Shown here: positions 1,921 through 32,491 of the stretch, in pieces
Numbering within the stretch: position 1 is the first letter of the stretch
How the letters are laid out: each line of letters starts with the position of its first letter
Source: a virus
Length of the DNA: 32,491 nt
Strand: one strand, 5' to 3'
Virus record (IMG/VR): IMGVR_UViG_3300033144_000765
Span: 1 to 32,491 of that record
The notes under the pieces: model-generated
Database searches by the model: none
What the model saw: the letters and a program-made list of their open reading frames with translations, nothing else
Told to the model about the DNA's origin: nothing
Translations under genes and position numbers: made by a program

Positions 1921-4900
1921 TTAAAATGTTGGTGATTTAAAATTACTGCCTCCAAAATTAGATCCTCCGAACTTATTGTTAGCTTTTGTTGATTGTTTTA
2001 TTTTTTTAATTGCTTTTTCATAATTCTGTGGTATTCCTTGTGATTTTCCTATATCACCTTCAATTTCCAAAGCATATTTACTCCATCCCATACCTAATGC
2101 TATTTTTTGTACAACGGTTGTTCTCTCATCCATTATTAATTGCATATCTTCAATACTTCTTAATATATACTCAGGAGCCGCGAAGTTAGTAATAGCTGTG
2201 ACAGTTTTAAGACCAGCCTCTAAATTATTACCTTCTAAGAAACCTTCTTCTTTTTTGATACCTCTTTCAGCTGCGTAACCCGCTGATTGAAGCTTACTAA
2301 TTTTCATGTCAATAGAAGTAGCAAACTGTAAAACCTCTTCCCCAACATCACCTAAACTTTTATTCCAGTTTACTTTCTTACCTTCAGGAGTTCTTTCTAA
2401 AGCCTCATTTGCTTTTTCACCCATAGCGTACATTGTAGTTACGACTTTACCCGTAATACCTGTACCATTAACTAAATTCTCTAAAACAGCATATAATGCT
2501 TCTATACTTTTCTTTTTAGTTTCAGCAGCTTTTACATCAGCAGGTATTTCATCATCCATTAGTAACCATAGTAAAGCATCTTTAGCCATAGCAAAAAGCA
2601 TAGGTTGTATAGCTACATAATTAGCTAATTGGAAAACATCTTTTTTACTACCTCTACCAGACTTTATATTTTCTGCGGCTTCAACAATTCTATTATTATA
2701 TAGCATTGTTGTGTTTAAAAAGTTTAATATAGCTCTAGAATAACCTTGAACCTGTTGTTGAGCCAAGTTCTTTTGGTCGTAAGACTGCTGATTACTTTCT
2801 GAAACGGTTCTAAAATCTACAAAAGCTTTCTCATAAGCTTCTTCAGGACTATAACCCTGCTTCTCGTAAGTTTTCTGTCTATTAACTATAAGTGTACTTC
2901 CTCCAGTTGCAATAGCAAAAGCATCCATAGCAGAGGTAATACTAAAACCAAGATCCATAGCCGATTTTAAAAACTTCTTAGGATATTGTAATATATTAGT
3001 TGTAGATATCAACTCCTGTAAGCTCTTATACTTATCATCAAAGTTCTTGAGCCCTTTAGCAAATTCACCTTCTGCAACACCCATTTCCCTATTTTTAATT
3101 CTATTTTTAACGTAATCACTTTTTAAAGTTTTTACAACTTGTTTATAGAATTTTGGTTGAGCTAGCATACTAGTCATTTTTAGTATGTTGTTATCAGAAG
3201 AATTAGCATAGTTAAGCATAGATAACATCTGCAAAACACCTGACTTTCTATTTAAGAATAATGCAGCTGCTGATGCTCCATTTAACCAGGTTATCATTTT
3301 CTTAGCATTAGGATCTTTAATACTTGAATCACTTTTACCAGTTTTCATTCTCTCTAAAGTGCTATCCATAGCTGATCTCCATTTAGGCCCTAGATTAGCT
3401 TCCATTTCTGCTAGTCTATCTTCACTAAATAATAGTTTTTTATTTTCCTCCCACTGAGTTAAAGCTTGCTCTCTACCTTTAGTATCTATAGTTATATCTA
3501 AATCCTTACCTAAAGAACCTCCTTCGTTACTTCTCCAAAATTCATTTGGATCCGCCATTCTATCTACTTTATTTAGGTTTTGAGTCCATAATTTAAATAA
3601 GTTTAAATCTGGATCATTCTTTATATACTCTTGAGCTTCTTTCATTGTTTCTTTAGAAACACCAGGCACATCAGAACCCTGCTCATTCCATATGTTCATT
3701 CTTACAATCTCTTCTCTAGTATATCCTTTAAAAGCTTCTTTATTTAAACCTAAATCTCTATGTTGTTTTCTTAAAGCTGTGTAATCATTACTCATGGAAA
3801 CTCTCATAGAAGCCAGTTCAAGCATAGCTTTGTCGTATGGTTCATAAAAATACTTATCATAAAACGCTATAGAATTTTTACCGCTTTGACCAGTGCCATA
3901 TAACTTAGAAGTTAAATTTATAGCATGCCTAGCACTATAAGGTGTTATTTTAAATGTATTTTTATTTTTCCCAGCTACTCTACCTTCTTGACTTGAAACA
4001 CCTTTAGCTCTATCCTTACCAAAAGTATTATCTAATAACCTCTCTTGCTCTTTTACTATTTCCCAACCAGTTGCTGGCGTTTCATAAGTATTGGTTCCAC
4101 TAGCATCTACAGTACTAGTTATAGGTGGTTTAGCCCAAGGATCAACATCTCCCTTTTCATTTACCCAAGTTCCTTTACCAACTACCCAAGGACATTGATC
4201 AACAACGTATTTAAAAGAATCCATGTTTTCCCACTTATCATCTGACATGTGTAGCTCGTTGTCCCCTGCTTCTATTCTTTCGCAATAAACTAACATTTTA
4301 CCTTCGTCTCCACCACAACATTTAATGTTTTCAATTGGAATTTCAAGACCAGCTTCTTTAAAAGCTTTATATATAGATTCTTCAGCTCCAAATCTAGCAG
4401 TAACTATGAACACTTGATCTGCTTTACCTTCTTCAATTAACCTTTTAAACTCTTCATACTTAGGACCAGGTAACCAATCTTTAAGTTCTGTAAATTCAGA
4501 GTAATCAAATTCAGCACCTTTAGCTTGAAGATCTTTATACTGCTGCATATACTCTTCGTTATTTAAACGTAGTTCAGTTCCATCAGGTAGTTTAGCTATA
4601 GTTCTTTCTCCAGATTTACCAACAAGAACACCGTCCATGTCGTACATGTAAGCTGGTCTTGATTCATCTTCAGGCCTATTTAATTTGTCTCTAGTGTTAT
4701 CTAATAATTCTGCTGTTCTCTTCTGCCCTGTTGTACCATCTACAGCACTATCTCTAATTACTTTTTTAAGAGGATCAGGAGCTGACTCAGTGTTTTGCTT
4801 TTCAGCATTATCATATTCCTTATAATTTCTTACTTGATCTTCTATAAATTCTGTAGCTAAATCTTTACCACTAGGATCTATAACTGCATCTGCTAAAATT

Positions 4901-7900
4901 AGTTTACTTTGATCATTCATTCTATTTAGAACTTGTCTCTCGGTTAAACCAGTTCTATCTATAACCTTATCTATTACCTCCTCTTTAATAGTCTTAGTGT
5001 AATTACTGTCTATTGTATAAACGTTTTCAAACTCTGAGCCTATATCCATTAGCGCAGACTTATCCCTGTTTAATTTTAAAGATTTACCTCCTGGAGTAAA
5101 CTGTGCGTCGAGTTCATCTAACCTATTTCTTCTAGCATAAACTGCAGCAGCAGGTGTTTCACTGCTTTCACCACTTATTAAATTCTCTATAGTTTCTAAT
5201 CCTGACTCTAACTGAGGTTTAGCATGTTCAACTTTAGTCTTTTCGCTCATATTACGCTTAGAGTTAGTACCTTTAGTTGGCCCATCCATAAAAGCGTCAC
5301 CAAAGAATTCTTTATAAGAATAATTTATAGACTCATTATCTTGTGATTTTCTCTCAGGTATTACTATCTTATATTCATTTCCGCTAGGATCGGTATATGT
5401 GAAATATTCTTGAGGTTGAGTTGTTGTTGGTATTTCTATAGCAACTGTAGGTGATAATTTTCTTTTACCTTCTCTTATGCTAGTGTCAGCTTGATTTTTA
5501 GTTGCTAAATATTTTAATCTTCTTTTATATTCTTCTTCACTTATTTCTTTACCTTCTTCTAAAAACAGTCTTTCACTTTCAGCTAAAGCTTTTTCAGTAG
5601 CTACTTTATTGTCTTGAGTTTCTTTATCAAAGTTTTTTCTAGCTAATTCTTGTCTTGCCTCGAATGATTGCAATTCAGGATCTATTACTTTAACAGGATG
5701 CTTCTTTCCATCAACACCTTCTACTTGTACTTTTTTAGTACCATATATAATTTGATCAGCTTTTGCAGCGTCAGAAGAGGATCCTTTAACCTTTCTAACA
5801 CCATCCCAATGTGATGTTCCACTTGACCCAACATGTTCAGTTCCATAAAATTGTTGAGTTGTTTTAATTCTTTCAAGAGGTTCACCTGTTTTTAAGTTTG
5901 TTAAACCTTGAACTCCATATCCTCCATAGGTTGCTTGACCACTATAAGCATCTAAATCACCACCGCTAACTACTTTAGCATTATTAGGTAAAAACTTTTG
6001 GAATTCATAAGCCATCTTTCTTTCTTCATTTAGCTTATCAACATCCATTGTTCTATTCTTCTTATTATACTTATAAGTAGGTGTAGAAACTTCTTCTAAC
6101 TCTTTCACAAACTCCTCATCGACACTGTATTTTTCACCAATATCACGAATACCTTTTTTAAAGTTTTTTATTTCATCTTTCTCGTTTAGATCTGCTTGCT
6201 TTCTTAATTCTAAATCAACTATATCTTCAATGGTTCTATTAGTTATACCATTAGTTTCGTTTTCTTTCCACTGTTCGTAAGTATCATTGCTTATAGATTC
6301 TTTTCTGCTATCAGCCCATTTTTGAAACTGTCTAGGTTCTATACCTTGGTTTTCTAATTCTAAAAATATATCTTCTGCTACTTGATCTGTAACTTCTTCA
6401 TACTCTCTAGATGAAGCATCTATATCTACTTCGTACTCAATGTCATAAGCTCTTAAAGTAGTACCAGCGTTAGCTAAAGCTTTTTGATTTTCTGCGTTTC
6501 TTTGTATTTCTCTAATCTTTTCTGGATTAGTTTCAGTTCTAGATGATATATCCTCTACTGCGATAACTTTATTAACAGTCTCTCCGCTAGGCAACTCAAC
6601 AGTATAAACACCTTGATTATCTATAGTTTGATTAAGAAATTGTTTTTGTTTATTTAAAGCTATTAACTCAGCTAATTTTAATCTTCTTTGAGATGTTTTA
6701 TTACTTTTTTGCTGATTAGTATATTCTAAACCTGTTTTAGGATTTGTGGCGTAATCTCCCTCAAAGGTCATAAAATCTATAAAATCTTTTTGAGTAGGTA
6801 TTTTAGTTATATAAACAAAATCTTCTTTACCTTTTTTCACTTGAACTCTTTTACCTGTACTTTCGTAAAATATATTCCAGTTTCTAAGTCTCAACCAATC
6901 ATTTTCATTCTCAACTAAATCAACTAGGTCTGGATATATATCTAATAAGCTTTCAGTATACTTTTCACCAGTTCCTAACTCCTTAGCAATAGGACCTGAA
7001 TTGTTCATAGCTGCTTTCTTCATGTCTTTGTAGTCACCACCTGCTCTAACTACATCAGCTGTTGTTTCTTGTATAACAAAATCTTGTTCAGGTGTTATGT
7101 ACTCATCTAATATCTCAGTCTTTTGTTTTACTAGCTCAGTTTGTTTAGTTTCACTAGCCCCTCCATACTCAGAAGCATCTTCAGTAAATTCAAATTTATG
7201 TTGTAATTTTTTTAGTATATCTGGAAACTTTATAGTTAAATCACGTATATAAGCACCAAAAGGAGCTCCATTAGGATCCCATCTTTGTGTAAATTTTAAA
7301 ACTTCGTAATCAACTTCTGCCCTAAACTCATCAATCAAAGCTTGTTTATCAGATTGAGCCATGTCTTGAGTAGTAGGATGGTTTTGTATAAATAATCTAC
7401 CTTTTTCTTTTATACCAATTTGACCTTTACCATCAGCTCCCCTCGTTCCACTAATAATTTTATTTTTTTGGATTTGCCCCCATGCCTCTTCCTGAGTCAT
7501 AGATCCATCACCTTTACCTTGTAACGTTAGAACAGCTTGATCATTTTTATCAGATATAGTTAAGTTCTTTTGGTTTTTATCTATTCTATCTTGAAGCTTT
7601 TTAATTTCTTTATCAAAAAAATCTTTTTGATCAGGATATAATCTAGCATCTGCTTTTAATTCTAAAATAGCTGTTTTATCCTGCTCTATAGCTTTAAGTA
7701 TTTCTATTTTAGCCGCCGCATCTATATCAGCTGTCACATCATAACCAGTGGACGATGCTGAAGCAATTTGAGAAGTAGTAGGTTTCTTTACGGTTTGTGA
7801 TATGTCACCATAACTTCCACCCTCCATAAAGTTTTTAGTGTGGTTTTTAATTATTTCTTTATATCTTTCAACGGTAAGATCTACTTCACCACTACCTTTT

Positions 7901-10900
7901 AAATTATGAGTATCATTAATTAAATCTTCAAACGTTTCCATTTGCTGTTCTAATTCAATATCGTCAATCTTAATATCTCCTTTAACTATAGCTTCTACGT
8001 AGTAATTAAACCACTCTAGTGTAGATTTATTTTTCTTATAAGAAGGATGTTTTCTTAAACCAGCATCTAATATTTTTTCTTTTTGAGCATCAGTAAAAGT
8101 ATCTATAAACTTATCTACAAATTGTTTTTCTTTAGCTTCATTGCCTTTTATACCTAAATTTTCTAATAAATGATTTGTAAATTGGTGCTCATCCTCATGT
8201 GGACCTTTACCAGTTTCAAACTCTTGCTTGATTAATTCAGCATCTGCTAATAGAATAACTTTCTCAACCTCTTCACCATTTGGTAACTTTTCTTTTACTT
8301 TAATATTTAAAGCATCATAAACAGTACCTTTGTCCATGTTTTCAATTATCTCATTATACTGCTTTTCGTCTATTGTTTTATTATCTTTTAGTTCTTCTAA
8401 CTTATTTCTAACCTCTTGTTGACCTTTAACAGCAAATGATTCACCTATACCTTTTTCATTTCTGTTTTCAATAGTACGCTTTAAATTTTGAGAGGCTCTA
8501 TCTTCAGCTTTAATTTTAGCTTCTTTGATTATAGCATCTTCTTTCAGCTTAAGTTCTTCTAACTCAACTTCTATTTGTTTTTTAACTTCTCTTTCGCCGG
8601 GGAACACATCAGTTCCTCTAGCTTTCATTAATCTTAATTGAGCTTCTCTTTTTAATATTTCAGTAGTATTATCTATATATTTTTTACCTTCTGGAGTACT
8701 AAAATCTATAGCGTTTTGTCTACCTTTCGCCATTATATAATTAGATACCTCAGTATAATTAGAGTATATATCTATAACTTGAGGATCAACCCCAGCGTCT
8801 TCTAATATTTTTTTGACTACACTTTTAGATCTTATTTCGTTTAAAGTTCTTACAGTTTTAGAACTTAATGGAGCTCCAGACTTAGCTGATTGAATCACTA
8901 GGTTTATATCTTTATCCGTAACGTCTCCACCTTTATCTTTAGCTACTATTGTTTTGAAGTTTTCATATTCAAAATCTAATAAAAGAGATTGCTTAGCGTC
9001 GTGTACTTTAATTAACTCTCTTAAAGAGTTTAAACCGTTTTCTTTACCTTGGTTTTTACCGAATAATCTTAAATTATTTATAGCTTCTTGCTTTGCTCTA
9101 GTACCACTACCACCACCAAGAGCAACTTCAGTTTCAACCTTAGTTATTAAATCACTTATACTAGTTGCTTCCGCAAGTTCTTTATTAGTGAGACCTAATG
9201 TTTTTAAGTTAATTAAAAAACCTTCACCAACACCTATTTTTTTGTACTGTTCTTTAGCAGCTTTGTTTATCTTGTTTTGATAATCACCTACTAAACTTTC
9301 CTTGCTAGTATTTAAGTCTTTAATAGATTTATTTAAGTTTTGCTTATATCTTCTAGAACCGGTTACAGCATTAACTTCTCTTACTACATCGTTAAAAGTA
9401 TTTCTAGCTATTTTAATAGGCACCGCATTTTTAGTTACAAAACATAAAGCTGCCTTTTCTGCAAATGCTTCAGGATCCAATATGTGACCAACAAAAGTTT
9501 TAAAATCATAATCTTGATCTGGATTCTGAGGATTAGGTGCGCCAGAAACTACATCCCATAATCCAACAGGAACTTCACCAGCTGTCATTACAGCAGCACC
9601 TGTTATAGGTTTACCCACTGCATCTTTAACTAGTCGCTGCGCAGAACCAGGTACATAAGCCATTAAGTTCATTAATTGATCTACTTTACCACTTTCTAAA
9701 AGTTTAAGCATAGATTTGTCTAAACCAATACCAGCAACTGGAGCAAAAGCAAATAGTAAAGACATAGGGTCTGCATCATAAGCTCCACCAAAAGCAACAT
9801 TTCTAGCTTTTAGTATAGCTAATTCTTCAATGAATGCTACCATGTATTTCTCAGTGAATCTACCTACTCTACCAGTACCAAATAATAAATTATTAAATAA
9901 ACTACCCGCACCTTTAATACGCTTTAATAAACCAGCTCCACCTAACATACCTCTAGTAATAGCCATTTCAGCTATAATAGCTAAAAAACCAGGAGTACCA
10001 TATCCTACTTTATTTAAAAAAGTTTTATTATAAACAGCATCAATTTCATCTTGACTAAACTCCGTATCAGGAAAGTTCTCTTTAACCCAATCAAAAAATA
10101 CAGCTCTCTTATCCATTTTAGACATAGCTGGATTAGCAAACTGTTCACTAGCACCTTCTTTTACGCCATCAAAAAAGTTGTCGTCTTCAAGATTTAATGG
10201 ATTAAAGTTAAGTAAATAAGCTTGAGACAGTACATCAAACTCATTTGATTTTTTATTAAGTAAGTCTACAATTATTTGAAGTCTTGGTGAACCTTCTATC
10301 TCTTTAGGTAAGTATGTTAACTTTCCATCTTCAACAGCTTGTAATAGCTTTCTTAAATCAATGTCATCTAAATAACCGCCTGGTCTGTTTTCCATCTCTG
10401 CCCAACCCACTTGACCAGTAAAAATAGTTTCAAAAAAGTTAGAAAGAGCAGATCCTGCAGAAACATCTTTCCTATATGTATCTAAATTGTCATACAATTG
10501 TTTTGCTAAGTAGACTATTTCAAACTCTTTATTAGCCATTTCTTCCATAATAGCGTTAGAACTGCTAGGAATAACACCACTAGTTTGTAATATATCTATA
10601 TTTTCAGCATTAACAAAGTCATCACTTAAATCACTATCTAAAAAACTCTCTAAATCATCATCACCTTTTTTAAACTTTAATACTTCTTTAGTTTCAGGAT
10701 TTACAAATAACTCAAAATCTAAACCTAATGTTGTTTTAAAATCTAAGCCTGCACCTTCTAAATTTGCTTTATGTATATCTAATATTTGAGATCTTGTATT
10801 TTCGTATTGATCTATTTTTTTAGATGGATGTCTTTTATTCCAAGATTCTATCTCTTCATCAGTACCATCTAATAGGCCTAACAACTCGTCTGTTTCTTCT

Positions 10901-12189
10901 ATTAACCCAACGTTGGCTTTAGCTCCAGTCTCTGTTCCACCCCACCAGTTGTCATCAACTTCCACTGATTGAGCCATAATTTTTCTAACTTGTTGGTATT
11001 GTGTTGCACCGGGATCTATTGAAGATTCGTCTCCTTTTGCAGCAATAGCCTCTAAATCCTTCATTCTTAACTCAGCCGCGTTAGCCATTATTGCATCGCT
11101 TATAAACTGATAGTTTTCACCTGTGGATATATTATCTTTATAAGCCTTTGCTAAAGCTTGTCTTCTCTCACTAACAGCACGTCCAAACATTCGTTGTTGC
11201 TCTGGAAAAGCATTACCATACACTTGACTAGCTAAAATGTTATCATAATTTAAGCCACCTGGCATAGACTCTATATCTTCTAAAACACCTGGAGATCGTT
11301 TTATTTGATCAAGTGCTTCTTGTATAATTAAATCATATTCTCTAGTAACATCACTTATATTAATACCTAGCAACTCACCATTGTTACTTTTCATCAATCC
11401 ATAAAGGTCTTGAGCTTGTGCTGTAAGATTACCAAAATCTCTTGGTTTACCACCACTTAATGCACTTTCTGTATATTCTTCCCCTTCTAATGGATCATTT
11501 GTTGCTATTCTTACAAAAAGATTAACACCTTCTTCGCTTAACATGAGATCAGTTCCTACAACGTCGTTGTATTCTTGAAAAGTTGCTTTTTGTTTTTTAT
11601 ACTTTTCAATTTGCTCTTTTTGTATCTTAGCTTCTTTAATTTTTTGTTGTTCTGCAAGGTCTTGTAATACAGCTGGTGGAGCGGAATTTATTACTTCTTG
11701 TAATGCTTCGTTTGACTCTTGAATTTCAACTTGATCTTTAGCGTCTTGAGTTATTATAACACCTTGCCTACCAGCTCCCATGTAATCAGAAACGGCAGGT
11801 TTTGGTTCAAATTGTTTAGGATCAAATGGATCTTTTATAGTTTTAGGCTCAAATGGTTTATAAAGCTCTAACTCTACAGGTTTACCACTAGGTCCTATTA
11901 TAGTTTTAGTTTTTCGTGATTCCGAAGAACCATCTTCCTGCTTGGATGCCGAAGAGTCTGGCACTGCAGCTGCATCCTCTGTCTGAGCACCGTTTGACTT
12001 TCCCGACTTTTTCTTTTTGTCATCTCCTTTCTTATCATCGCCATCATCACCATTACCTTCATCTTCTAAAAGCTCGGCACCTGTTATAGAAATGTATTCT
12101 TTTAAATCCATACCTGAATTACTAGCAAACTCTTCTACTTCTAAGCTGCTATATTCTTCTCCAGATATACTGTATTTTTCTTTACTCAT
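1921..12189 (-). CDS. Giant 3422-aa multi-domain virion/ejection-type polyvalent protein
   Basis: One uninterrupted frame covers about a third of the window. The N-terminal ~110 residues are low-complexity and acidic/Lys-rich, followed by long helical charged regions. Hydrophobic stretches occur near residues 735-760 (GFLAIIAEMAITRGMLGG) and 810-840. H1331-E1332-D-E-H1335 is an HExxH zincin-type motif. A WDPNGAPFGAYIRDL segment lies near 1635. D2517-M-D2519-G-V-L, T2597 (VTAR) and D2650-D2651 (MSDDK) are in HAD-phosphatase order and spacing. The C-terminal ~500 residues (LNRKSGVLQMLSMLNYANSSDNN near 2970) recall the end of giant marine phage proteins. The tail is FGGSN-FGGSN-FKSPTF. Position after the 651- and 214-aa genes matches T7 gp16-type internal proteins, which enter the cell with the DNA. 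The virion/ejection role is inferred from context and size; the enzymatic domains are motif calls only. Confidence 0.8.
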   Translation of the reverse strand: MSKEKYSISGEEYSSLEVEEFASNSGMDLKEYISITGAELLEDEGNGDDGDDKKGDDKKKKSGKSNGAQTEDAAAVPDSSASKQEDGSSESRKTKTIIGPSGKPVELELYKPFEPKTIKDPFDPKQFEPKPAVSDYMGAGRQGVIITQDAKDQVEIQESNEALQEVINSAPPAVLQDLAEQQKIKEAKIQKEQIEKYKKQKATFQEYNDVVGTDLMLSEEGVNLFVRIATNDPLEGEEYTESALSGGKPRDFGNLTAQAQDLYGLMKSNNGELLGINISDVTREYDLIIQEALDQIKRSPGVLEDIESMPGGLNYDNILASQVYGNAFPEQQRMFGRAVSERRQALAKAYKDNISTGENYQFISDAIMANAAELRMKDLEAIAAKGDESSIDPGATQYQQVRKIMAQSVEVDDNWWGGTETGAKANVGLIEETDELLGLLDGTDEEIESWNKRHPSKKIDQYENTRSQILDIHKANLEGAGLDFKTTLGLDFELFVNPETKEVLKFKKGDDDLESFLDSDLSDDFVNAENIDILQTSGVIPSSSNAIMEEMANKEFEIVYLAKQLYDNLDTYRKDVSAGSALSNFFETIFTGQVGWAEMENRPGGYLDDIDLRKLLQAVEDGKLTYLPKEIEGSPRLQIIVDLLNKKSNEFDVLSQAYLLNFNPLNLEDDNFFDGVKEGASEQFANPAMSKMDKRAVFFDWVKENFPDTEFSQDEIDAVYNKTFLNKVGYGTPGFLAIIAEMAITRGMLGGAGLLKRIKGAGSLFNNLLFGTGRVGRFTEKYMVAFIEELAILKARNVAFGGAYDADPMSLLFAFAPVAGIGLDKSMLKLLESGKVDQLMNLMAYVPGSAQRLVKDAVGKPITGAAVMTAGEVPVGLWDVVSGAPNPQNPDQDYDFKTFVGHILDPEAFAEKAALCFVTKNAVPIKIARNTFNDVVREVNAVTGSRRYKQNLNKSIKDLNTSKESLVGDYQNKINKAAKEQYKKIGVGEGFLINLKTLGLTNKELAEATSISDLITKVETEVALGGGSGTRAKQEAINNLRLFGKNQGKENGLNSLRELIKVHDAKQSLLLDFEYENFKTIVAKDKGGDVTDKDINLVIQSAKSGAPLSSKTVRTLNEIRSKSVVKKILEDAGVDPQVIDIYSNYTEVSNYIMAKGRQNAIDFSTPEGKKYIDNTTEILKREAQLRLMKARGTDVFPGEREVKKQIEVELEELKLKEDAIIKEAKIKAEDRASQNLKRTIENRNEKGIGESFAVKGQQEVRNKLEELKDNKTIDEKQYNEIIENMDKGTVYDALNIKVKEKLPNGEEVEKVILLADAELIKQEFETGKGPHEDEHQFTNHLLENLGIKGNEAKEKQFVDKFIDTFTDAQKEKILDAGLRKHPSYKKNKSTLEWFNYYVEAIVKGDIKIDDIELEQQMETFEDLINDTHNLKGSGEVDLTVERYKEIIKNHTKNFMEGGSYGDISQTVKKPTTSQIASASSTGYDVTADIDAAAKIEILKAIEQDKTAILELKADARLYPDQKDFFDKEIKKLQDRIDKNQKNLTISDKNDQAVLTLQGKGDGSMTQEEAWGQIQKNKIISGTRGADGKGQIGIKEKGRLFIQNHPTTQDMAQSDKQALIDEFRAEVDYEVLKFTQRWDPNGAPFGAYIRDLTIKFPDILKKLQHKFEFTEDASEYGGASETKQTELVKQKTEILDEYITPEQDFVIQETTADVVRAGGDYKDMKKAAMNNSGPIAKELGTGEKYTESLLDIYPDLVDLVENENDWLRLRNWNIFYESTGKRVQVKKGKEDFVYITKIPTQKDFIDFMTFEGDYATNPKTGLEYTNQQKSNKTSQRRLKLAELIALNKQKQFLNQTIDNQGVYTVELPSGETVNKVIAVEDISSRTETNPEKIREIQRNAENQKALANAGTTLRAYDIEYEVDIDASSREYEEVTDQVAEDIFLELENQGIEPRQFQKWADSRKESISNDTYEQWKENETNGITNRTIEDIVDLELRKQADLNEKDEIKNFKKGIRDIGEKYSVDEEFVKELEEVSTPTYKYNKKNRTMDVDKLNEERKMAYEFQKFLPNNAKVVSGGDLDAYSGQATYGGYGVQGLTNLKTGEPLERIKTTQQFYGTEHVGSSGTSHWDGVRKVKGSSSDAAKADQIIYGTKKVQVEGVDGKKHPVKVIDPELQSFEARQELARKNFDKETQDNKVATEKALAESERLFLEEGKEISEEEYKRRLKYLATKNQADTSIREGKRKLSPTVAIEIPTTTQPQEYFTYTDPSGNEYKIVIPERKSQDNESINYSYKEFFGDAFMDGPTKGTNSKRNMSEKTKVEHAKPQLESGLETIENLISGESSETPAAAVYARRNRLDELDAQFTPGGKSLKLNRDKSALMDIGSEFENVYTIDSNYTKTIKEEVIDKVIDRTGLTERQVLNRMNDQSKLILADAVIDPSGKDLATEFIEDQVRNYKEYDNAEKQNTESAPDPLKKVIRDSAVDGTTGQKRTAELLDNTRDKLNRPEDESRPAYMYDMDGVLVGKSGERTIAKLPDGTELRLNNEEYMQQYKDLQAKGAEFDYSEFTELKDWLPGPKYEEFKRLIEEGKADQVFIVTARFGAEESIYKAFKEAGLEIPIENIKCCGGDEGKMLVYCERIEAGDNELHMSDDKWENMDSFKYVVDQCPWVVGKGTWVNEKGDVDPWAKPPITSTVDASGTNTYETPATGWEIVKEQERLLDNTFGKDRAKGVSSQEGRVAGKNKNTFKITPYSARHAINLTSKLYGTGQSGKNSIAFYDKYFYEPYDKAMLELASMRVSMSNDYTALRKQHRDLGLNKEAFKGYTREEIVRMNIWNEQGSDVPGVSKETMKEAQEYIKNDPDLNLFKLWTQNLNKVDRMADPNEFWRSNEGGSLGKDLDITIDTKGREQALTQWEENKKLLFSEDRLAEMEANLGPKWRSAMDSTLERMKTGKSDSSIKDPNAKKMITWLNGASAAALFLNRKSGVLQMLSMLNYANSSDNNILKMTSMLAQPKFYKQVVKTLKSDYVKNRIKNREMGVAEGEFAKGLKNFDDKYKSLQELISTTNILQYPKKFLKSAMDLGFSITSAMDAFAIATGGSTLIVNRQKTYEKQGYSPEEAYEKAFVDFRTVSESNQQSYDQKNLAQQQVQGYSRAILNFLNTTMLYNNRIVEAAENIKSGRGSKKDVFQLANYVAIQPMLFAMAKDALLWLLMDDEIPADVKAAETKKKSIEALYAVLENLVNGTGITGKVVTTMYAMGEKANEALERTPEGKKVNWNKSLGDVGEEVLQFATSIDMKISKLQSAGYAAERGIKKEEGFLEGNNLEAGLKTVTAITNFAAPEYILRSIEDMQLIMDERTTVVQKIALGMGWSKYALEIEGDIGKSQGIPQNYEKAIKKIKQSTKANNKFGGSNFGGSNFKSPTF

Positions 12190-12198
12190 TTTACAATA

Positions 12199-14154
12199 TT
12201 ATTTTATAAACCATGAACTACCAATTTGGACTACTGTTTGATTACCAGTAGCAGCTGCTTGTGCTGCGGCTTGAGTTTTGTATCCAACTTTCTTATTAGT
12301 TGTTGTGGTTGTAGCACCACCGCCAACTCCAGCACCTGACATCAAGTCTCTTCTTTCAGCCGCGGATAAATCTAAACTTTCATACAATAACTGCTCGAAA
12401 GCTTTACTATTAAATTGCTTATCACCTATAGCTATTTTTTTAGCTCTAGCACCACTAGTCTCCCATACATCGTCTTGATGTATATTATCTGCTCCATTAA
12501 AATTAGCCATAACCTGAGCAGTAGCATTTGGATCAACCCAAGTAGCTTTATCAGAAGGAACCGCCTGCATTTTTCCTGCTGCAAACTGTAATACTTGATC
12601 TTCAGTTAAGGTAGTAGAACCAGTTGCTAAAGCTGCTAAATTAGCATATTCGTTGTAAATTTTGGTTTTAAGATCTCTACCATGCTCATATTGTTTGCCA
12701 GTTGTAGATCCAGAATTTTGTAGTATGTCTATTATAACGTCACCTCTAGTAGAATAGTCACCATTGGCATCTTGATAAGGTCCTATAGTTTCTGCCAATA
12801 TTTTTATATTAGCAGGTGTCATTTTCCCACCTTCAATAACGTCAGTTAAACTTCCTACAACTTGACCATTATTATCTTTAATTTTTATGTTATCTGTTAT
12901 ACCTCTAGTTTGATTACTTGGGTTATTAAACCCTATAGGAATACCATTAGTTCTATAGTTATTTAATCTTACAGCTTTATCACTAGGTTTTACATTTTTA
13001 ATTTTATTAATTTCTTTATCTTCTTTAGCGAAGTCAGCAATAACCTTCTCAGCAAGTAAGTCTGCATAAGCGTCTCTCATGCCTTGATTATTCTCATCAA
13101 AAACACTCCAATCTTCTGCGCCATTAGTAGTATTCCTTTGTTCACCTTGTAACATTTGCCACATGTTTTGTCTAGCGTCTCTATTGTCAGGTAAAAAAGT
13201 ATTCAAATCACTTGTTATTTTATCTTTAATCATCTGGTTACTTCTTTCATAACTAATGATTTGTTGAGTATTTATTTTTCCACCACTTTTAGTAATATTT
13301 TCTATTTGCTCTTTTAAGTCATTATAAACACTTTTACCTCCTGCTAATTGAAAAGCATTTTTAGCCCCGTCATTAAAATCTTCTTGACTTGTTACGCTAA
13401 TTAAATCATAACCTTCCGATGTTCTATCTTGATAAGCTGCAAAATTTAACGTTATATTTTCCTTATAATCTTTGTCGCCTGGTTGCAGATAATAAGTAGC
13501 TTGCGTATTAGGATCGATTCTTTCATTGTCTGGATGTTCCATTGTTAAACCAACAGCACCTCCTTCATCACCTGTGGAGAATTCTATACCAGCACCTTTT
13601 TTGTTTACAAAAGTATCCATTAATATCCACCAATCATTTTCTTGTTGGTTCTTTGATTTTAATCTGGCTCCAGACACTCCTGAATTTAAAGGTGTAGTTG
13701 ACACAGTACCATTAGCTGAGCCTTGAGGTCTACTATAAGAACCTTTAAATGAAGCTACTTCTCTTTCTAGTAGTTTCATAGCATTATTAGATAAGTCTGT
13801 ATAGTTTGTTATTCTACCAACCATTTGATTCCATTCAGTGCTTTCGTAAGGTAGGGTCATTAATTCGTCTATAAGATCATTAGTAAAACTTTTGAACTTG
13901 TCAGGAAATGCCTTTATCTTTGGTTGAGCTAAAGAGTTTAGTTTAGACCTATATTTTTCAGCATCTTTATCCTTAAGTCTTTCTCTTTTCTCTTTTTCCG
14001 CGGCTGCTTTAGCAGCGGCAGCAGCAGCGGTAGCGTTAGCTTTTTTAGTATTAGCTATATTTGTTGCTAATTGCTTTGCACCTTTATTTAAACCTTCTCT
14101 AGCAGCGCTAAAAGGATCATTCTTTATTATTTCCGGTTTACTATATGTACCCAT
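12199..14154 (-). CDS. Putative internal virion (ejection cargo) protein, 651 aa
   Basis: This is a soluble, mostly helical, polar protein. Residues ~30-75 form an Ala- and charge-rich helix (poly-Ala followed by KEKRERLKDKD), a likely coiled coil. The middle is an Asn/Asp/Gly-rich globular region. The C-terminus has a Gly/Thr linker (GAGVGGGATTTTTNKK) followed by a short domain ending QTVVQIGSSWFIK, which may be an interaction tail. No enzymatic motif or membrane segment was seen. It lies between the 214-aa gene and the giant gene with spacings of 13 and 9 bases, the slot of the T7 gp15-like internal core protein. Function is assigned from position only; it could also be a tail accessory protein. 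The start codon has an A/T leader with no Shine-Dalgarno sequence. Confidence 0.6.
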   Translation of the reverse strand: MGTYSKPEIIKNDPFSAAREGLNKGAKQLATNIANTKKANATAAAAAAKAAAEKEKRERLKDKDAEKYRSKLNSLAQPKIKAFPDKFKSFTNDLIDELMTLPYESTEWNQMVGRITNYTDLSNNAMKLLEREVASFKGSYSRPQGSANGTVSTTPLNSGVSGARLKSKNQQENDWWILMDTFVNKKGAGIEFSTGDEGGAVGLTMEHPDNERIDPNTQATYYLQPGDKDYKENITLNFAAYQDRTSEGYDLISVTSQEDFNDGAKNAFQLAGGKSVYNDLKEQIENITKSGGKINTQQIISYERSNQMIKDKITSDLNTFLPDNRDARQNMWQMLQGEQRNTTNGAEDWSVFDENNQGMRDAYADLLAEKVIADFAKEDKEINKIKNVKPSDKAVRLNNYRTNGIPIGFNNPSNQTRGITDNIKIKDNNGQVVGSLTDVIEGGKMTPANIKILAETIGPYQDANGDYSTRGDVIIDILQNSGSTTGKQYEHGRDLKTKIYNEYANLAALATGSTTLTEDQVLQFAAGKMQAVPSDKATWVDPNATAQVMANFNGADNIHQDDVWETSGARAKKIAIGDKQFNSKAFEQLLYESLDLSAAERRDLMSGAGVGGGATTTTTNKKVGYKTQAAAQAAATGNQTVVQIGSSWFIK

Positions 14155-14824: not shown

Positions 14825-16753
14825 TTATTGTGATGATAATTGATAAACGCTACCTACTGCAAATAACTCTTTAGGTCCAAATGGATTGGTATCGCTATCA
14901 GTAGACATTTTAACAGTTGCAAAGTAACCTTTTATACCACTTGTTCTGTTGTTTCTACCATCATAACCTGTTTCAAATATAACTTCTCCAGGTCTTTGTT
15001 CAGAATTATTAACTAAGTTTGCTACGTATTTATTTTCTTTTAGTGCAAATCCAGAGTTGCCAAAGTCACCATCAGCATCTGTATAAGCTCCCATTGTGTT
15101 TGATCTAACTTTTGTAGTTGAATCTCTAAGTTGAACCCAATTACCAACAGTATTCGCGTTCCAGTTCTGACCAGCATTACTCTGTGGTATAACTTGATAA
15201 CCTTGATAACCACTTACAGCTGTATCCATTTCCCAACCATTACTACCTTCATAGTTTATAGTTAAAAAGTTTTTACTAATACTAGGGCTTGGGTTAAATA
15301 TAAAAGTTATAGAAGCTTCTGATCGAACACCATAATAAGTTTGATAATTGTTTTGAGTTTCTATGTTAGAATAATGAAGATAAGTATTACCTTTATTGAA
15401 AGAGTAAAAACCATCTTTTAAACTTCCCATAAACGTAGGGTTATAAGTATAAAAACTTACCCATCCATTTATTGCATCGTCAAAAGATAATGTACTATAA
15501 CCAATACTAGGAGGTATTAAAACACCGGACTCTTCATAATTTTGATTAGGTAAAGGGAAATAATTAGGAGTAGACTGTAAAGAAACTGTATAACACTTAT
15601 TGTGTATATCCCAACCACCAACTAATCTAGGTAAACAATCATTTGAAAATATAATAGTATCACCTACGCTGCTTATATTTACACTCTTAGAAGTTTCTAT
15701 ATTCCAACCGTTAACCACGTTAGGATTAGGCGAAACACCTATAACATAGCAGCCGCTAACGGATGTTATACCACCTGAAGAATCTTGTACAGAAACTAAA
15801 GAACCTAATATAGGTATTGTTGAATTATTTGTTGCTGATATTTCAAACTCTTTAACAATACCAGTTATATTAACAGCTGAAGCTGTAGTTGTAAAATTAA
15901 TTGCTCCATCAGATATTCTCGCTAGTTCATCTCTAAAATAGTCAGACATACCATAAGATGATATTTCAGTCATGCCGTCTCTAGATAGCCTTAAAACGCA
16001 ACCTCTATCCTTGTCTATAAAGTATTTTCTAAAACCATACAAAGCAAAAGACTCTGGATTTCTACTAATACCATACTCGCCAACATATGGTGTTATTTGA
16101 CCTATAACAACTGGAGATGTGGTAACAGTGCCAGCTCCTTCTGCTGAATAAATAGCGTCTTTATCTATCAATGCTCTACTTACTTTGTTTTCTTGAAACA
16201 ATAGTAAATTACTATCTTCTGCATATAATTTTTGTAATGATCCATAATGAGGATCTGCGGTCTTTGTTATCTCAGCACCTGTAGGAAACTGGTTTGTTTC
16301 ATTTACATTTGTTTTACCGTTAAATATACCTGAATATATCATAGAGCTAGGTCTGTGAAATGTAACAGGCATTTCTTCTGTTATGTACGCTTTAACACCT
16401 AAGTCTACTATAGTGTTATTAAAACCACCTCTTATTCTAGATTCTTCAATAAACCAGCATCTAGCTTCTTGTTTTTTTCCATAGTCAATATCTTCTTGAG
16501 TTACACCAGGTTCTATTATAGTAGGTATAGGATAAAAACCTAAACCAAATCCACCCGCTATAGAGGTATTAGTACCGCACACGTTGGCTCCAGCCGGGTC
16601 ACTACCTGGCCATATAGGTTGAAAAGAAGTTTCGTCTTGCGGTGTTAAGCCGTTTGGTTGCGCAGCTCCTTCACTACCCCATTCTTTTCCATTGTCTACT
16701 ATTTTCTTTAACCAAAATGTGTTAAAATATTCTACTTCTATAACTGCTGGCAT
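14825..16753 (-). CDS. Second tail nozzle/stabilisation-type protein, 642 aa
   Basis: This is a beta-rich protein. Residues ~140-270 carry the strongest block: MIYSGIFNGKTNVNETNQFP, GSLQKLYAEDSNLLLFQENK, VSRALIDKDAIYSAEG, IGQITPYVGEYGISRNPESFA, YGFRKYFIDKDRG and VLRLSRDGMTEISSYGMSDYF. I recall this block from structural proteins of crAss-like and marine Bacteroidota phages, annotated as tail stabilisation or nozzle. It probably forms part of the tail tip below the 1992-aa protein. The C-terminal ~300 residues are Ser/Asn/Gly-rich beta structure with many aromatic residues, suggestive of a knob. The gene follows the 1992-aa gene after 30 bases. Residues 1-140 include a CWFIEESRIRGG segment. 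The virion role is well supported by context; exact tail position is inference. Confidence 0.68.
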   Translation of the reverse strand: MPAVIEVEYFNTFWLKKIVDNGKEWGSEGAAQPNGLTPQDETSFQPIWPGSDPAGANVCGTNTSIAGGFGLGFYPIPTIIEPGVTQEDIDYGKKQEARCWFIEESRIRGGFNNTIVDLGVKAYITEEMPVTFHRPSSMIYSGIFNGKTNVNETNQFPTGAEITKTADPHYGSLQKLYAEDSNLLLFQENKVSRALIDKDAIYSAEGAGTVTTSPVVIGQITPYVGEYGISRNPESFALYGFRKYFIDKDRGCVLRLSRDGMTEISSYGMSDYFRDELARISDGAINFTTTASAVNITGIVKEFEISATNNSTIPILGSLVSVQDSSGGITSVSGCYVIGVSPNPNVVNGWNIETSKSVNISSVGDTIIFSNDCLPRLVGGWDIHNKCYTVSLQSTPNYFPLPNQNYEESGVLIPPSIGYSTLSFDDAINGWVSFYTYNPTFMGSLKDGFYSFNKGNTYLHYSNIETQNNYQTYYGVRSEASITFIFNPSPSISKNFLTINYEGSNGWEMDTAVSGYQGYQVIPQSNAGQNWNANTVGNWVQLRDSTTKVRSNTMGAYTDADGDFGNSGFALKENKYVANLVNNSEQRPGEVIFETGYDGRNNRTSGIKGYFATVKMSTDSDTNPFGPKELFAVGSVYQLSSQ

Positions 16754-16783: not shown

Positions 16784-19700
16784 TTACTGAACATTAGGAC
16801 CAGTTGTCCAATCTGATGTCTCGTCGTACCAACTTGGCTGTGTAGTATATACATCTAGATATGATGTTGGAATTGGTCTTGTTAAAAAGTTTCCAGTATT
16901 AGCTTCTATTTCTACAGCCCAAGTATGATAAACACCACCTACAGTATCGATACTACCTCGTCTAGGACCCATAGCTCTTTCGTCTCCATAAGGAACACCT
17001 GCTTGTTCTGGAAATAACCAATCGCCTAAAGGAAATACTTGATTAGTAGAAGGTATAGTATTATCATTAGGTGATACGTATCTTTTTGTAAACGCAAACC
17101 ATCCATTTTGAGAACCACCTGTAAATTTAGAGTATATGTAATCGTTACCAGCTTTAACTCTAGTGTAAAAATTACTAACATACCTGAATACTGGTTCTTT
17201 GGCAAATAAGTATTGATAGTTATTATTGGCAGGATCCCAAACGTCATTCACAAAATCTACAGCTGTTAATCTATTAGATTGTTCATTTATAGCAACTGTA
17301 TAAGCATACCAAACATAATCAGAAGCTTGACTGTTTTTAGGAAATCTAAAGTTTTGCTGTTGAGCAATACCGTTGTAAGCTGGTTTTTGATCAAACTTTG
17401 GAGAAGGCGATTTCTTGCCCCAAATTCTATTGTCTGGTCTTTCGTTATATAAGTCATGCACTTGCACACAAACACCTGGGCCTATAGACCTATCAAAAGT
17501 ACCTGCTGCTCCTCCGCCACCACCTCTTATAGTAGTAGTCATATATGGTCTAGCCCCATTGTAGCTTGGTCCAAAATTAGAATTTGCGTCTGGATATGGT
17601 TTTAAACCTTGTCTTAAATTGTCGAATACAAATCTATAATCCCCAGCTTTATTTACTGCAAAACAAACCTCTGCATAAGCTTGATTATTTCCTGGACTAG
17701 CATTGTTATAGTTTCTTAATGCTAACCCTTGAGGAAAGTTTCCACCAGCATCTTGCTTTAAGTAGAAATCTTGCTCTTGCATTATAAAGCTTTTTCCATT
17801 ACCTTTGTCTTTAACAGTTCCATTACCTTTTTCTTGTAAGTATATGCCTGGAACACACATTCCTTGATTATCACCCGCCACTGGTTCACTACCATTATCT
17901 TTCTTATTATAAGGTATAGTTGTAGTTCCATTTCTAACTTGACTGTTATTAAAATCTCCTCTGTAAAACAAACAAGATCCATAACCATAAAAATTAGCTT
18001 CATCTGACAACGTATCCCATATACCCGTTTGTAGTGGTTGATTATTTATATCTGTAGCTGTTTCCCAAGCAGAAGTAGAGTTTGGTCTATATTGTATTAA
18101 GAAATTTCCAAACATAACACCTTCTTGTACACATGTAGTTCCTCCTGTTGCATTTATAGTTCTTCCATTACCTGTTGCAAAGTCAGAATTTGAATCAAAA
18201 TTAAAGTGATCTATAACTATTCTTATTAAAGCTGTACCTTCTTCAAGACCGTCTTGGTTACCACATTGGACATTTATTCTATTTCTAAAAGATATTTTAG
18301 ACATATTACCATGGCTTTTCCAATTGTACAACGTAGCATCACCCCAGTTATTAATTCCCCAGGCATTATTCCAAGCTACAGCTAAACCAGTTACTTTAGC
18401 GTCACGATCATTTCCTACTATTTCGTTCCACTTTTTATTTCTTCTACTGTTGCTACCAACTTTAAATGATGAAGGTTTTCCACCTCTCGCTCTTCTAAAG
18501 CAATTACCATTGTCATCATCTTCGTTGTTTCCGCTTTCCCAATTATCATTGCTAGTATCTGCTTTATATCCCCATCCGAATATAGCACCATTAACCGCTG
18601 ATGCTAAAACATATCTATAACCAAAGCCTGTATCAGCAGCACTTTGTGTCCAAAAGCTAGTGCCAAACGTTAAGTTTCCATCAGCAGGTGGTTTACCAGT
18701 GTTATCAGGCATTATTTGTCTACTCCACCAGCTTATTGCAGATGTTTGACTACCTAGAGGTACGTACCTATCCCAAGGTTGTACTAATCCTCCTGTTCTA
18801 TTACTAGTTTCGGTTAAAGAACTACTACCATTTCCATACTCAAATCCATTGACATCTGGAAAATCACCTTCGTTTCCTCCTCCTGCCCACCAGCCTCTTA
18901 AATTAATACTAGTGTATTCAGGCCAAGCGTAAGATGGCATAACTTGAGCAGCATCTTCTCCACGTTGCCTACCAGCCCAAGTAGCTGCATAGTCTAACAC
19001 TAAACCAAAAACATCATCACCGTTTGTTCCAAACGTATCGTCCCAAACTTGCTTAGGCCAAGAACCCAGCGGTGCTCTTACCTTACTAGTTCCAGTTCCT
19101 GATCCACAAGTTAATGTTTGTAGCGTATCAACTTGACGAATCATTGATGGCATAGGTGCATACCCACTAGGGTTTTTCCACATAGGAGCACCAGAGTTTA
19201 CACCTTCTAAATTTATACCAGCTTTGTTTCTAGAGAAATAACCATAATGACCACTCCATATACCGTATTGTATAGATGCGTTTGTTATATTACCTTCTAA
19301 TCCTGGTTGTAATAAATTTATACTAGAAGTAGCTGTTGTCGTAGCTCCAAAACCATTTGCATCTGTTACAGAAAATACTAAAGTATAAGTTCCTGGCTGT
19401 CCACCAGCATTTAGTTTTAATTTATACTCACCATCAATAGCAGCTCCGTTATTACTAGTGTTTTGTACAAGCTCAAATAATGGACCACCATTAGGTGCTG
19501 TGACTTGATTAAAAGGGTCTAATATTTCTACTTGACTAGTTAAATTACAAATAAGTTGTGAAGTATTTGTACTAGTGTTAGAAGTACCATTAAAAGTTTT
19601 TAATATTTCTGGAAAATCAAAAGAAGAAAAGGATGGTACATCTGGGAAGGCAGGTATACCTTCAGGGTCACCAGTGTTAGGATCTATATCACCGAAATAA

Positions 19701-22700
19701 GGTGCAACATTAGCAACTTGGCCTTGTTCTGGTAGTAAAACTGTATTCAATGTAGGATCGTTAGGTACAAAACTAAACACAAAAGAAATAGCTCCTTTAA
19801 AAGGTGCTTGCGCATAATCTTGTAAAAACGTCCAATAAGCTCCAGTTATTCCAGATAATCCAGTGAAAAAATTATTTAGTTTTAAATTATAGGTTTGGTT
19901 AGGTGGTGCTCCATATTGTATAGGCGTAAAGAAGTCTTGAGTTCCAGCTCCAAATGAAAGATTAATAAAACCACCAGAGTTATCAGGTACTTGAGCTGTA
20001 GAATTATTCCAATCTATAACACCTGCTACTTGACTACCTAATTGATCTACAGCATAAAAGTCGTTGGCTAGTAAATCATCACCATTAAGACCAGGCTTAT
20101 CACTTTCATCACCTATAAATCTCCACTCAGGTCCTATATCTCTAGGGCCAAACGGTTGAGAGGCTTCTTCGTTTAAATCTGATATTAAACCAGTCGTAGA
20201 TGTTTCCCAAAAAATATCTAAATTAGACTCTACAGGAGATGTTTCTAAAACAGATAACTCAGGTAGTACTATTAAACTTCTTTCTGGCCCAGCAGTAACA
20301 TAAGATCCTAATCCCTCCTTTGTTGACATTCTAAGTATTAAAGGATTTGAAGCTGCGTTGTAAAAAGTGGCGTTAGTAAAAGTTAATGCTGCAGAGTCAG
20401 CTATATCAAAAGGATATTCTTCTGCCTCTATATTAAACATTGCCTCCATACCTTCTGTTCCGGCACCAGTTCCATCACTTATAAAGTCTGGATTTTGTCT
20501 ATAATTTTTAACCAACGCTCCGCTAGGGATAGTATTAGTGTTTCCACTAGTTACTAAAACAGTAGCATTGTCAAATATATTTGTACTATATTGCTTTACA
20601 AAAACGTTTTGATTTTCGTTTGCAACGGTTACATTATTAGACTGGTGAGATAGTATAACAGTTTTAGTTTGACCCATACCCATGTCGGCTAACGTACCAA
20701 TCGTTACTACAGAGTCAGGAGATTGACCAGGGTAGTATTGAGTATTGTAAGGTTGATTTAAAGTTAAAGTGCTATAAGGTTCTACAGCTGGAGCTGCTTG
20801 ATATTTAGTAGCTATATTATTTACCCTGCCAAATAACCTTACACTAGATCCAAAAGTTTTCTGTGTTGGACCTACTTCTCTTAAGTCTCTTGGTACTTTA
20901 TTTATGTTATCATTTATAAGAACCGTATGTGCGATAGTATTTATAACAGAGTCAGACGTGTATTCTAAGTACCCATCTAACATACCTGGAGTATAAACAT
21001 TGTAGTAATCTGTTTCAGTTTGTTTTACAACTACCTTATAACTATACCAACCTAAAGGGTTTGTAACTTCATCATATATACCGTTGTTTATTATAGTTGG
21101 ATCAAACAGTTGTATAGGACTGTTAAAAAGCATTTTAATAGAGTCACCTACCCAATATATTATTTCTTCACCACCTTGTTCTTTGTATTTGTGATATATT
21201 GTGGAGTTTTTAAAAGTTATTCCATTTATTATTTCTTCTTCAAGTGTAGTAGGACTTAATATAACTGGTGTTTGTCTACCAAATCTATCTGCTAAAACAA
21301 CACCTACTTGATAATTTCTATTTTGCTTTAATGTATGGTTTGGATAAGCCACTCTTGATGCCACTTTTTGAGAGGTAGCTGTTGGGGGATTAACGTTAGT
21401 GTTTAACTTTTCACTTACACCTACTTTATAATCTAACGAAGACGGGTATGGATTACTTGTTACAAAATTTCCATAAACAACTCTATTACCTACAATTTCT
21501 TGAGTTAAGGCTCTCACTGGAACTCTATCAAATACTCTTGTTGTTTCATTTTCAGGTAATACTTTTATTGGTTTTGCAGACTCATATTCCCAGTTTATAA
21601 AACTATTAGATGAATTAAATATTGGATCTGTTATTTTAATCTTTTTGACTATGTTTACAGGTATGCTGTTAGCTTCTTTATAAAGAATTTCTAAAGAAAC
21701 AACTTTATATTTATCTCTTAGTTCATTAGCAGGACATGGTAGATCAATGTATATATTAATACTGTCTACCTTATTTTCCATAAAGTCTACTATAGTACTC
21801 TTGTATGCATTATCTTCTTGCACTGAGTTTATTCCATCACCTACACCGTTATAAGTTTTTGGTAGATTTAGTATAAAATATCCATCTTGCTTAGGTATAA
21901 AAGCAGTTTGAGTGAATGGTGCCATTAAAGACATTTCATCATCTTCGTATTTAAACCTATAACTAAACCGAACAAATTTATCTTCTAAAAAAGATCCATC
22001 ACCTGCAAACTCAGGATCGTACGTTGGATTAGGGTTTGTTGGTAAACCTGTTACTGAGTTATATTTATCTTGACCGTAGTTAACAGGATTAGCATCAATA
22101 CTTTTATTTTTCATTTGAGGCTGTGGCACATCTTGACCACCACAATCTTCTATAGCCCAAAGCCTAGGTGGAGAATAAGGATAATACTTAGCTACAGATA
22201 TTTGGTCTTCAGTTACGTAATGAAAAGGACTACTAAGCGCTCTATCGATATTTATTTTTCTTGGTTGATTTCTATTATCAGTCCAAAATAGTAAATTTTC
22301 TAACACGTTTATTCCTGTTACTAAGCTATTTTTAGAAAAGTTTAGGTATCTACCTGTTGTTAATATACTTAATTGCCTAGTCATTACGTTAAAGCAAGAT
22401 ATAGCATTGTATATTTCAGGGTACGTAGTATTATTTACTAACTGTGGATGTTGTAAGTTTGTTTGAGAATTATCTATATAATTAGTTACAAATAAGAATA
22501 TTCTATCATTGTTCTCATCAATCTTAAAACCAATAACATCTAAATTATCTGGTGATTGCAAGCCAGATGTTTCTTTAATCTGTATAACAGCCTCTCTAAC
22601 AAGCTCATTACCTAAAGCGTTTTCTAAAGCTCCTACATCAGCACCTTCAGATCTACTTATTTGCACGTTTTGAGCTTGTCTATATTCTCCACTTGGAACA

Positions 22701-31204: not shown

Positions 31205-32491
31205 TTATTTTATTATTTGTGAAATTGACCCTTCGTTATTGTATTTTTTCATACCTAATTTTATTTGTTGGATTGAGTTCATAGATATTGGTTTATAATT
31301 ATTTTTATTACAAGCCATTATGGCTAGTCCAGAACTAATGGAAGCATCGTGCTTCGTTCTGTTGTTAATGTTAAATTGTGCCCAATCTTCAAGAGTTCTT
31401 TGGAAATACATATCTCCACATTCTTCATTATTGTATCCAACAAAATTTTCTATATAAGATTCTATAGCTGAAGCGTGTGCTTGCTTAATATCTTCACTTG
31501 AGTTAGGTATTCCACCTATTTCTTTTTCAGTTATTGAAAGTTTATTATAAACCTTATCTGGTCTATTAATACTAAAACCTCTATATCCTCTACGTTTAAA
31601 ATAATATAATAATCTAGGTTTATTATTTTCCGCAAGTATTGGCATGCCGTAAAATACACAAGCCATTAATACGTCTTCAAAAAATATCTCAGCTGTCTGA
31701 GGTCTAGCTATGTATTCTAAAAAGAAGTGATTAGGTGGCGCATCTGCCATACTAAATTTGGTTAACCCATGTAGCGATCCATTAGACCCTTTACCGTCGA
31801 CAGTACCACTAATATCATAAGAATCACAACCAAATGCTCCGATATGATCGTTTCCAGCGTGTCTAGTTCCATTTTTTATTATTACATTATTTTGTAAACT
31901 ATTGCTTGGTATCCATGTTATAAAAAACCTACCATTCCTACTTGGATAAAACAAAACTTTAGTATCTTTTTTTCCATTTTCCCAGCCAAAATTGCCTTGA
32001 GTTACGTTTTTACTGTTATTAAAGTCTTCGTTATAATCTATTTGTTGATATATTTTAGTAAGATTAAATAAACTTTCTTTAGCTTCATCCCTAAAGGCAT
32101 GCTTCTCAGTTCTTGGAAACTGCCTGTAATATTCATTTAAACTATCTTGATCTTCTTTTAATCCATCAACTTCGTTTTCCCAGTGCTCGATAACTCCGGT
32201 GTCAATTGAGATATTATCAATTCCGAGGATTTTATCTTTTGGCGTAGTGAATACAGGTAATCCAAAAGTATCCATGAATCCTTCGTAGTTCCATTCCATA
32301 GGGATGAAAAGAGAATACAATCCGCTAGCTGTTTGTCCGTTTCTATTTCTTTTAGTAACGTCTGAAGAGTAGTATAATTTTTTGAAGTTGTTTCCACCTT
32401 TATCTAATGCGTTTGAAGTTGAGCCCATCATACACTTACCTACGATCCTACGTCCTAGTCTTAATGTAGTTTTTGTAACTCTCCAGTTGTT
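31205..32491 (-). CDS. terL: Terminase large subunit, C-terminal part; 5' end outside window
   Basis: TerL uses ATP to pump DNA into the head and cuts it. The frame is open to the window edge; about 428 residues are visible, and residues before the first in-window ATG (WRVTKTTLRLGRRIVGKC) continue the protein. The ATP-binding Walker motifs are outside. Visible are the end of the ATPase domain (GKCMMGSTSNALDKGG, motif III-like) and the segment SGLYSLFIPMEWNYEGFMD. The nuclease domain has the acidic motif FGCDSYDISGTVDGKGS, the segment AEIFFEDVLMACVFYGMPIL and the late HDASISSGLAI segment. I recall close relatives in marine Bacteroidota phages. It is followed immediately by the portal gene. Confidence 0.9.
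   Translation of the reverse strand, partial: NNWRVTKTTLRLGRRIVGKCMMGSTSNALDKGGNNFKKLYYSSDVTKRNRNGQTASGLYSLFIPMEWNYEGFMDTFGLPVFTTPKDKILGIDNISIDTGVIEHWENEVDGLKEDQDSLNEYYRQFPRTEKHAFRDEAKESLFNLTKIYQQIDYNEDFNNSKNVTQGNFGWENGKKDTKVLFYPSRNGRFFITWIPSNSLQNNVIIKNGTRHAGNDHIGAFGCDSYDISGTVDGKGSNGSLHGLTKFSMADAPPNHFFLEYIARPQTAEIFFEDVLMACVFYGMPILAENNKPRLLYYFKRRGYRGFSINRPDKVYNKLSITEKEIGGIPNSSEDIKQAHASAIESYIENFVGYNNEECGDMYFQRTLEDWAQFNINNRTKHDASISSGLAIMACNKNNYKPISMNSIQQIKLGMKKYNNEGSISQIIK

Follow-up and report, generated by a model that had tools for sequence, protein, structure and literature searches.

A 3422-residue putative virion cargo protein with predicted protease and phosphatase domains in an uncultured podovirus

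The window analysed here is an IMG/VR record of 32,491 bases in the linear class, and its contig is probably a fragment. One open reading frame of 3422 amino acids with an ATG start occupies positions 1921–12189 of the minus strand, and the ORF listing agreed exactly with the single unbroken 10.3-kb frame of the initial annotation. At the GC content of the window (~33%), roughly 7% of codons in a random frame would be stops, and a frame of this length is therefore not a product of chance. The ATG start is supported by residues 6–43, which match a module at the extreme N-terminus of ~20 relatives. The giant is the final gene of a co-directional virion block, which runs from the terminase large subunit (TerL) and portal through structural and tail genes to proteins of 1992, 642 (muzzle-like), 214, and 651 aa and then the giant, a position that bears out its earlier placement in the ejection-protein slot. 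The genes of the block that matter below are:

31205–32431, minus strand: terminase large subunit, running off the window (phrog_6681)
28805–31204, minus strand: portal protein (phrog_6547; tblastn)
14825–16753, minus strand: 642-aa protein with a crAss muzzle C-terminal domain (PF25729, E 1.2e-6)
12199–14154, minus strand: 651-aa protein with an MGTY-type N-terminus, directly upstream of the giant
1921–12189, minus strand: giant ORF, 3422 aa, final gene of the virion block; homologous giants fill this slot in relatives

The window portal was 49% identical to that of ctfjg026, 42% to those of Flavobacterium elemo phages, 34% to that of Calle_2, and 27% to those of phi18:3 and Gundel_1 (tblastn), and the window phage is therefore an uncultured relative of the flavobacterial podoviruses (Elemovirus, Pervagoviridae, Pachyviridae). 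N-termini resembling that of the 651-aa protein precede giants in four relatives (L107, L111, L116, L117), the protein upstream is a different one in several others, and the 651-aa product is a candidate second cargo protein. In phrog_14478 (1474 residues), the 642-aa protein matches residues 922–1095 and the 1992-aa protein (16784–22762) matches residues 1–180; a tail gene that is single in some relatives looks to be split into these two proteins in the window. Just beyond the giant, the plus strand encodes part of a ribonucleotide reductase (58–774, phrog_367), and a DUF6321 protein lies at 1130–1507.

The same slot holds a 3859-aa gene in ctfjg026, a 3694-aa gene in elemoE, and shorter genes in Calle_2 and phi18:3. 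When the window protein itself was the query, searches of Pfam, PHROG, PDB, and phages (tblastn) gave nothing useful, and peptide-seeded scans using this protein alone were unsuccessful. A profile of residues 2500–3400 found at least 587 confirmed relatives in viral metagenomes, 80 of which were kept for a combined set with a median length of 2923 aa among its 87 full-length giants. Portal-recovered long contigs carry giants of 2804–3670 aa, where these are complete, and one version of 1228 aa. The family is thus abundant in viral metagenomes (at least 587 loci), but Pfam gave no significant match to its conserved core, and tblastn gave none among phages of the collection. Matches in the genome collection were seven loci on MAG contigs, for which we rejected an assignment as host genes and which we read as binned phage fragments. 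On one 50,058-base contig (G004), two giants face in opposite directions, one of 3450 aa (L107, 2595–12947) and the other of 3520 aa (L108, 1287–11849); this contig is either a chimeric assembly or derived from a single phage with two cargo giants.

Iterated HMM searches, the seeds of which included the window, showed that all 91 homologues have a HAD-type domain and share a conserved C-terminus. We also tested whether sharing the slot means sharing the family for elemo and ctfjg026. The HAD and C-terminal profiles scored no better on these giants than on shuffled controls, and the zincin alone was detectably shared; the slot therefore does not imply homology throughout. Because the earlier HMM seeds had contained the window sequence, profiles were rebuilt without it and scored against 196 shuffled or reversed decoys (leave-one-out test). 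Within the giant we distinguish the following features, listed from the N-terminus:

12061–12174, minus strand: N-terminal module, residues 6–43 (leave-one-out, 24.9 bits against 5.6 for the best decoy)
11800–12060, minus strand: charged low-complexity linker, residues 44–130, probably disordered (sequence, composition)
9706–9984, minus strand: moderately hydrophobic stretch, residues 736–828 (Kyte-Doolittle)
7759–8307, minus strand: predicted zincin-type metallopeptidase domain, residues 1295–1477 (leave-one-out, invariant residues)
6730–7368, minus strand: segment at the position of the relatives' sigma-like domain, residues 1608–1820 (pairwise match to L158, E 0.0023)
4930–5442, minus strand: EHxxPA-type conserved motif (E2321 H2322), residues about 2250–2420 (alignment)
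4045–4677, minus strand: predicted HAD phosphatase domain, residues 2505–2715 (invariant residues, leave-one-out, model, Foldseek)
2059–4032, minus strand: conserved helical C-terminal module, residues 2720–3377 (91 of 91 homologues, leave-one-out)

The N-terminal module sits at the N-termini of giants, with one weak internal match elsewhere among 2748 scanned ORFs, and it may be a packaging signal. Charged residues make up 41% of residues 30–130, which look disordered. The hydrophobic stretch does not form clear transmembrane helices (best 19-residue Kyte-Doolittle mean 1.35). Residues 622–948 show weak pairwise similarity to L106 (E 4e-8), and in the leave-one-out test, with 196 decoys, the profile of the hydrophobic region gave the window copy no support. 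Of the segment types described at the outset, the enzyme-like ones (zincin and HAD) held up, the disordered one is probable from composition, and the hydrophobic one proved moderate.

Several observations support the predicted zincin. First, the motif HEDEH (residues 1331–1335) is followed by a third ligand at E1392, and none of H1331, E1332, H1335, and E1392 varies across an alignment of 50 sequences, which had been selected by zincin matches. Second, the leave-one-out profile scored 19.9 bits against 4.7 for the best decoy. Third, 82 of 94 slot giants contain HExxH, where composition predicts 0.47; the motif is missing from some slot giants and from phi18:3 gp123. Finally, the profile matches Gundel_1 gp074, elemoE gp18, and, more weakly, ctfjg026, with hhalign probabilities of 94% for elemoE gp18 and 43% for ctfjg026, and the zincin is the module most widely common to slot giants of different groups. 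This breadth is also what one would expect of a maturation protease that acts in virion assembly, cutting the giant and perhaps other head proteins, so that the main role of the giant would end before ejection. Processing inside the head has been put forward as one option for polyvalent proteins (PMC5512222), but a maturation role leaves the universal HAD domain and the variable cargo unexplained, and we consider it improbable.

The predicted HAD phosphatase domain has the DxD, T/S, K, and DD motifs of this class on a Rossmann-type core. Residues D2517, D2519, T2597, K2631, D2650, and D2651 are invariant in 65 sequences, and the leave-one-out profile scored 75 bits against 4.8 for the best decoy. 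In an AlphaFold2 model of residues 2441–3422 (mean pLDDT 73.8), an alpha/beta HAD-like core is followed by an all-helical module. Foldseek against the PDB placed a class C acid phosphatase at the top (probability 0.92, E 0.19) and also listed a phosphoserine phosphatase; these E-values are weak, yet motifs and fold agree on the prediction. The initial annotation had staked its case on enzyme folds, as opposed to disorder or coiled coil only, and the model and Foldseek gave HAD. About half of the giants have an EHxxPA motif ahead of the HAD domain, with E and H nearly invariant in an alignment of 50 sequences; this region may be a further enzyme domain. The HAD domain is interrupted by a P-loop kinase of the AAA_33 or Zeta type in 7 of the 91 relatives, an arrangement reminiscent of polynucleotide kinase-phosphatase. 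The window protein has no P-loop kinase and is not a polynucleotide kinase-phosphatase in domain content. Pfam scans of other slot giants gave DUF3293, ART-PolyVal, or collagen-type matches.

The length and position of the giant are similar to those of virion RNA polymerases of the N4 or crAss type; the DEV virion RNA polymerase has 3398 aa (PMC10925440), and the DxD superficially resembles a polymerase motif. We rejected this identity. Pfam scans of the window and its relatives found no polymerase domain, and the DxD is part of a HAD signature, together with the T, K, and DD motifs and the HAD fold; PF00940 was also absent in 19 records, a search whose control was uninformative. A virion RNA polymerase is thus hardly credible here. 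The DEV protein also bears on size, as do the slot homologues, which are mostly 2280–3859 aa: the window protein is far longer than T7 gp16, as first stated, but its size is not unusual.

The helical C-terminal module was the strongest in the leave-one-out test (450 bits against 3.0 for the best decoy), and Foldseek found no enzyme match to it in the PDB. Searched against the predicted viral structures of BFVD, the model of residues 2441–3422 matched 46 entries at E ≤ 0.001. Podo-, sipho-, and myoviruses are all represented, and the matches include proteins annotated as ART-PolyVal, PolyVal ADP-ribosyltransferase, and large polyvalent protein associated domain. The C-terminal profile also matches Gundel_1 gp074 (45.9 bits, hhalign 96%).

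That the most conserved part of the giant is helical and lacks a PDB enzyme match is compatible with a mainly structural protein of the inner core or ejection channel, like T7 gp16 or crAss gp45, in which the enzyme-like segments would be structural relics. Such a protein would also suit the ejection-protein slot and the hydrophobic stretches. However, the HAD and zincin catalytic residues are invariant over dozens of highly diverged sequences, and enzyme modules have repeatedly been added in relatives. The lytic transglycosylase domain of the T7 gp16 type had no Pfam match in the window or its relatives. On this evidence we think a mainly structural role unlikely.

In 21 giants, a domain of about 100 aa follows the zincin, with the pattern FxPIV ... 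LLTDEIETGxRGIxDLIxxYxPxSGVPLAAYIN. By sequence and modelled fold, this domain resembles region 2 of sigma-70. An hhalign comparison put the profile of the domain in register with sigma region 2 of primary sigma factors at a score of 27.4, against a maximum of 18.1 over 150 column shuffles. In a blind ranking of 2113 ORFs, only 41 of which are sigma factors, nine of the top ten were sigma factors; the set holds many related sigma factors, and these ranks are not independent. The 50 PDB matches that Foldseek listed for a model of the zincin and sigma-like domains of L170 (mean pLDDT 81.7), the latter domain at residues about 780–885, are mostly to sigma-70/SigA chains, and each of them is weak (E 0.095 and up). 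Against PDB sequences, the profile found sigma factors only at E 0.28 and 0.59; single-sequence Pfam scans of 12 sigma-like sequences gave no Sigma70_r2 match, and one member of the wider set had such a match at E 0.0032. In comparison with E. coli sigma-70, the domain keeps the tyrosine of region 2.3 but not the paired tryptophans, which makes promoter melting by it uncertain.

The window copy of this segment scored at noise level in the controls and in the leave-one-out test, and a sigma-like domain in the window protein is not established. An E-value of 8e-18 was discarded, as the window had been in the seed and the controls and leave-one-out test removed the support. A stand-alone sigma factor of about 250–260 aa is present in 13 of 15 long relatives (L240–L252; hhalign 99.5% to host sigma factors), suggesting that these phages use host RNA polymerase. 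A tentative extension, which on balance we doubt, is that ejected giants of this marine phage family bring a sigma-70 region-2-like domain together with phosphatase and protease and redirect or block host RNA polymerase before phage genes are expressed, with no packaged polymerase, the window protein being a diverged version.

The gene, its family, its domains, and their catalytic residues stand at the level of sequence or fold. From them, we infer packaging, ejection, processing, targets, and all activities. The presence of the giant in the virion is suggested by synteny with phi18:3 gp123, a same-slot protein whose virion annotation comes from MS/MS proteomics, and by the 'structural protein' annotations of the elemo, Calle_2, and Gundel_1 counterparts. 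The giant of this uncultured podovirus is likely to be a virion cargo (ejection) protein of the polyvalent type, packaged and ejected to deliver a phosphatase and other cargo. After packaging in the head, it would exit via the tail in a partly unfolded state, together with the DNA or before it; ejection through the tail has been proposed for crassvirus cargo (PMC10172136). Cleavage by its own zincin, either inside the head or once in the host, might release separate units, and zincin self-processing has been proposed for polyvalent proteins (PMC5512222). The phosphatase and lineage-variable effectors would then be delivered in the first minutes of infection. Across relatives, variable cargo lies between conserved ends, and because only the C-terminus and the HAD domain are kept in every homologue, the C-terminus would be the scaffold for packaging or ejection.

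The polyvalent, many-domain character first proposed is largely supported by the zincin, the HAD domain, the variable cargo, and the fold matches to polyvalent proteins, and not by exceptional size. Both the size and the polyvalent principle were already known. A limited literature search turned up neither this family nor its universal HAD domain, and neither the kinase nor the sigma-like insertions. These results extend polyvalent proteins to relatives of flavobacterial podoviruses and add a universal HAD phosphatase, a kinase within a phosphatase, and sigma-like insertions to the cargo list, and Gundel_1 offers a cultured phage for work on how such giants are packaged, processed, and injected.

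Among known systems, elemoE gp18 and ctfjg026 UOF82488 share the slot, a comparable size (3694 and 3859 aa), and the zincin with the window giant, but are not matched by its HAD and C-terminal profiles above shuffled controls. N4-like virion RNA polymerases, such as that of DEV, resemble it in length and in a probable virion cargo role, whereas no single-subunit RNA polymerase catalytic domain was detected in the window giant. T4-type polynucleotide kinase-phosphatase joins the same two activities as the seven relatives with a P-loop kinase and a HAD phosphatase, but the relatives' kinase sits within the HAD domain and the window protein has none. Gundel_1 gp074 (Tenacibaculum phage, host Tenacibaculum sp. 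AHE14PA, Pachyviridae, YP_010356829.1) is a 2482-aa structural protein with a homologous C-terminal segment and a zincin; unlike the window giant, it has no detectable HAD domain, N-terminal module, or sigma-like domain, and its gene stands before TerL. Within gp074 (gene at 4109–11557 of L253), one segment resembles a GNAT acetyltransferase by eye and is another possible cargo domain. The phage polyvalent proteins, in which the zincin is a common hub domain (about 36%; Iyer et al., 2017, PMC5512222), differ in that curated Pfam models for LPD or ART do not match the window protein, an LPD match being supporting and not required, and the terms sigma, phosphatase, and polynucleotide kinase are absent from the main text of that study. 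Like them, the window giant is a very long protein encoded beside virion genes, with domains of disparate activity (zincin and HAD) in one polypeptide, a zincin hub, variable cargo, and a C-terminal fold that matches polyvalent-annotated proteins.
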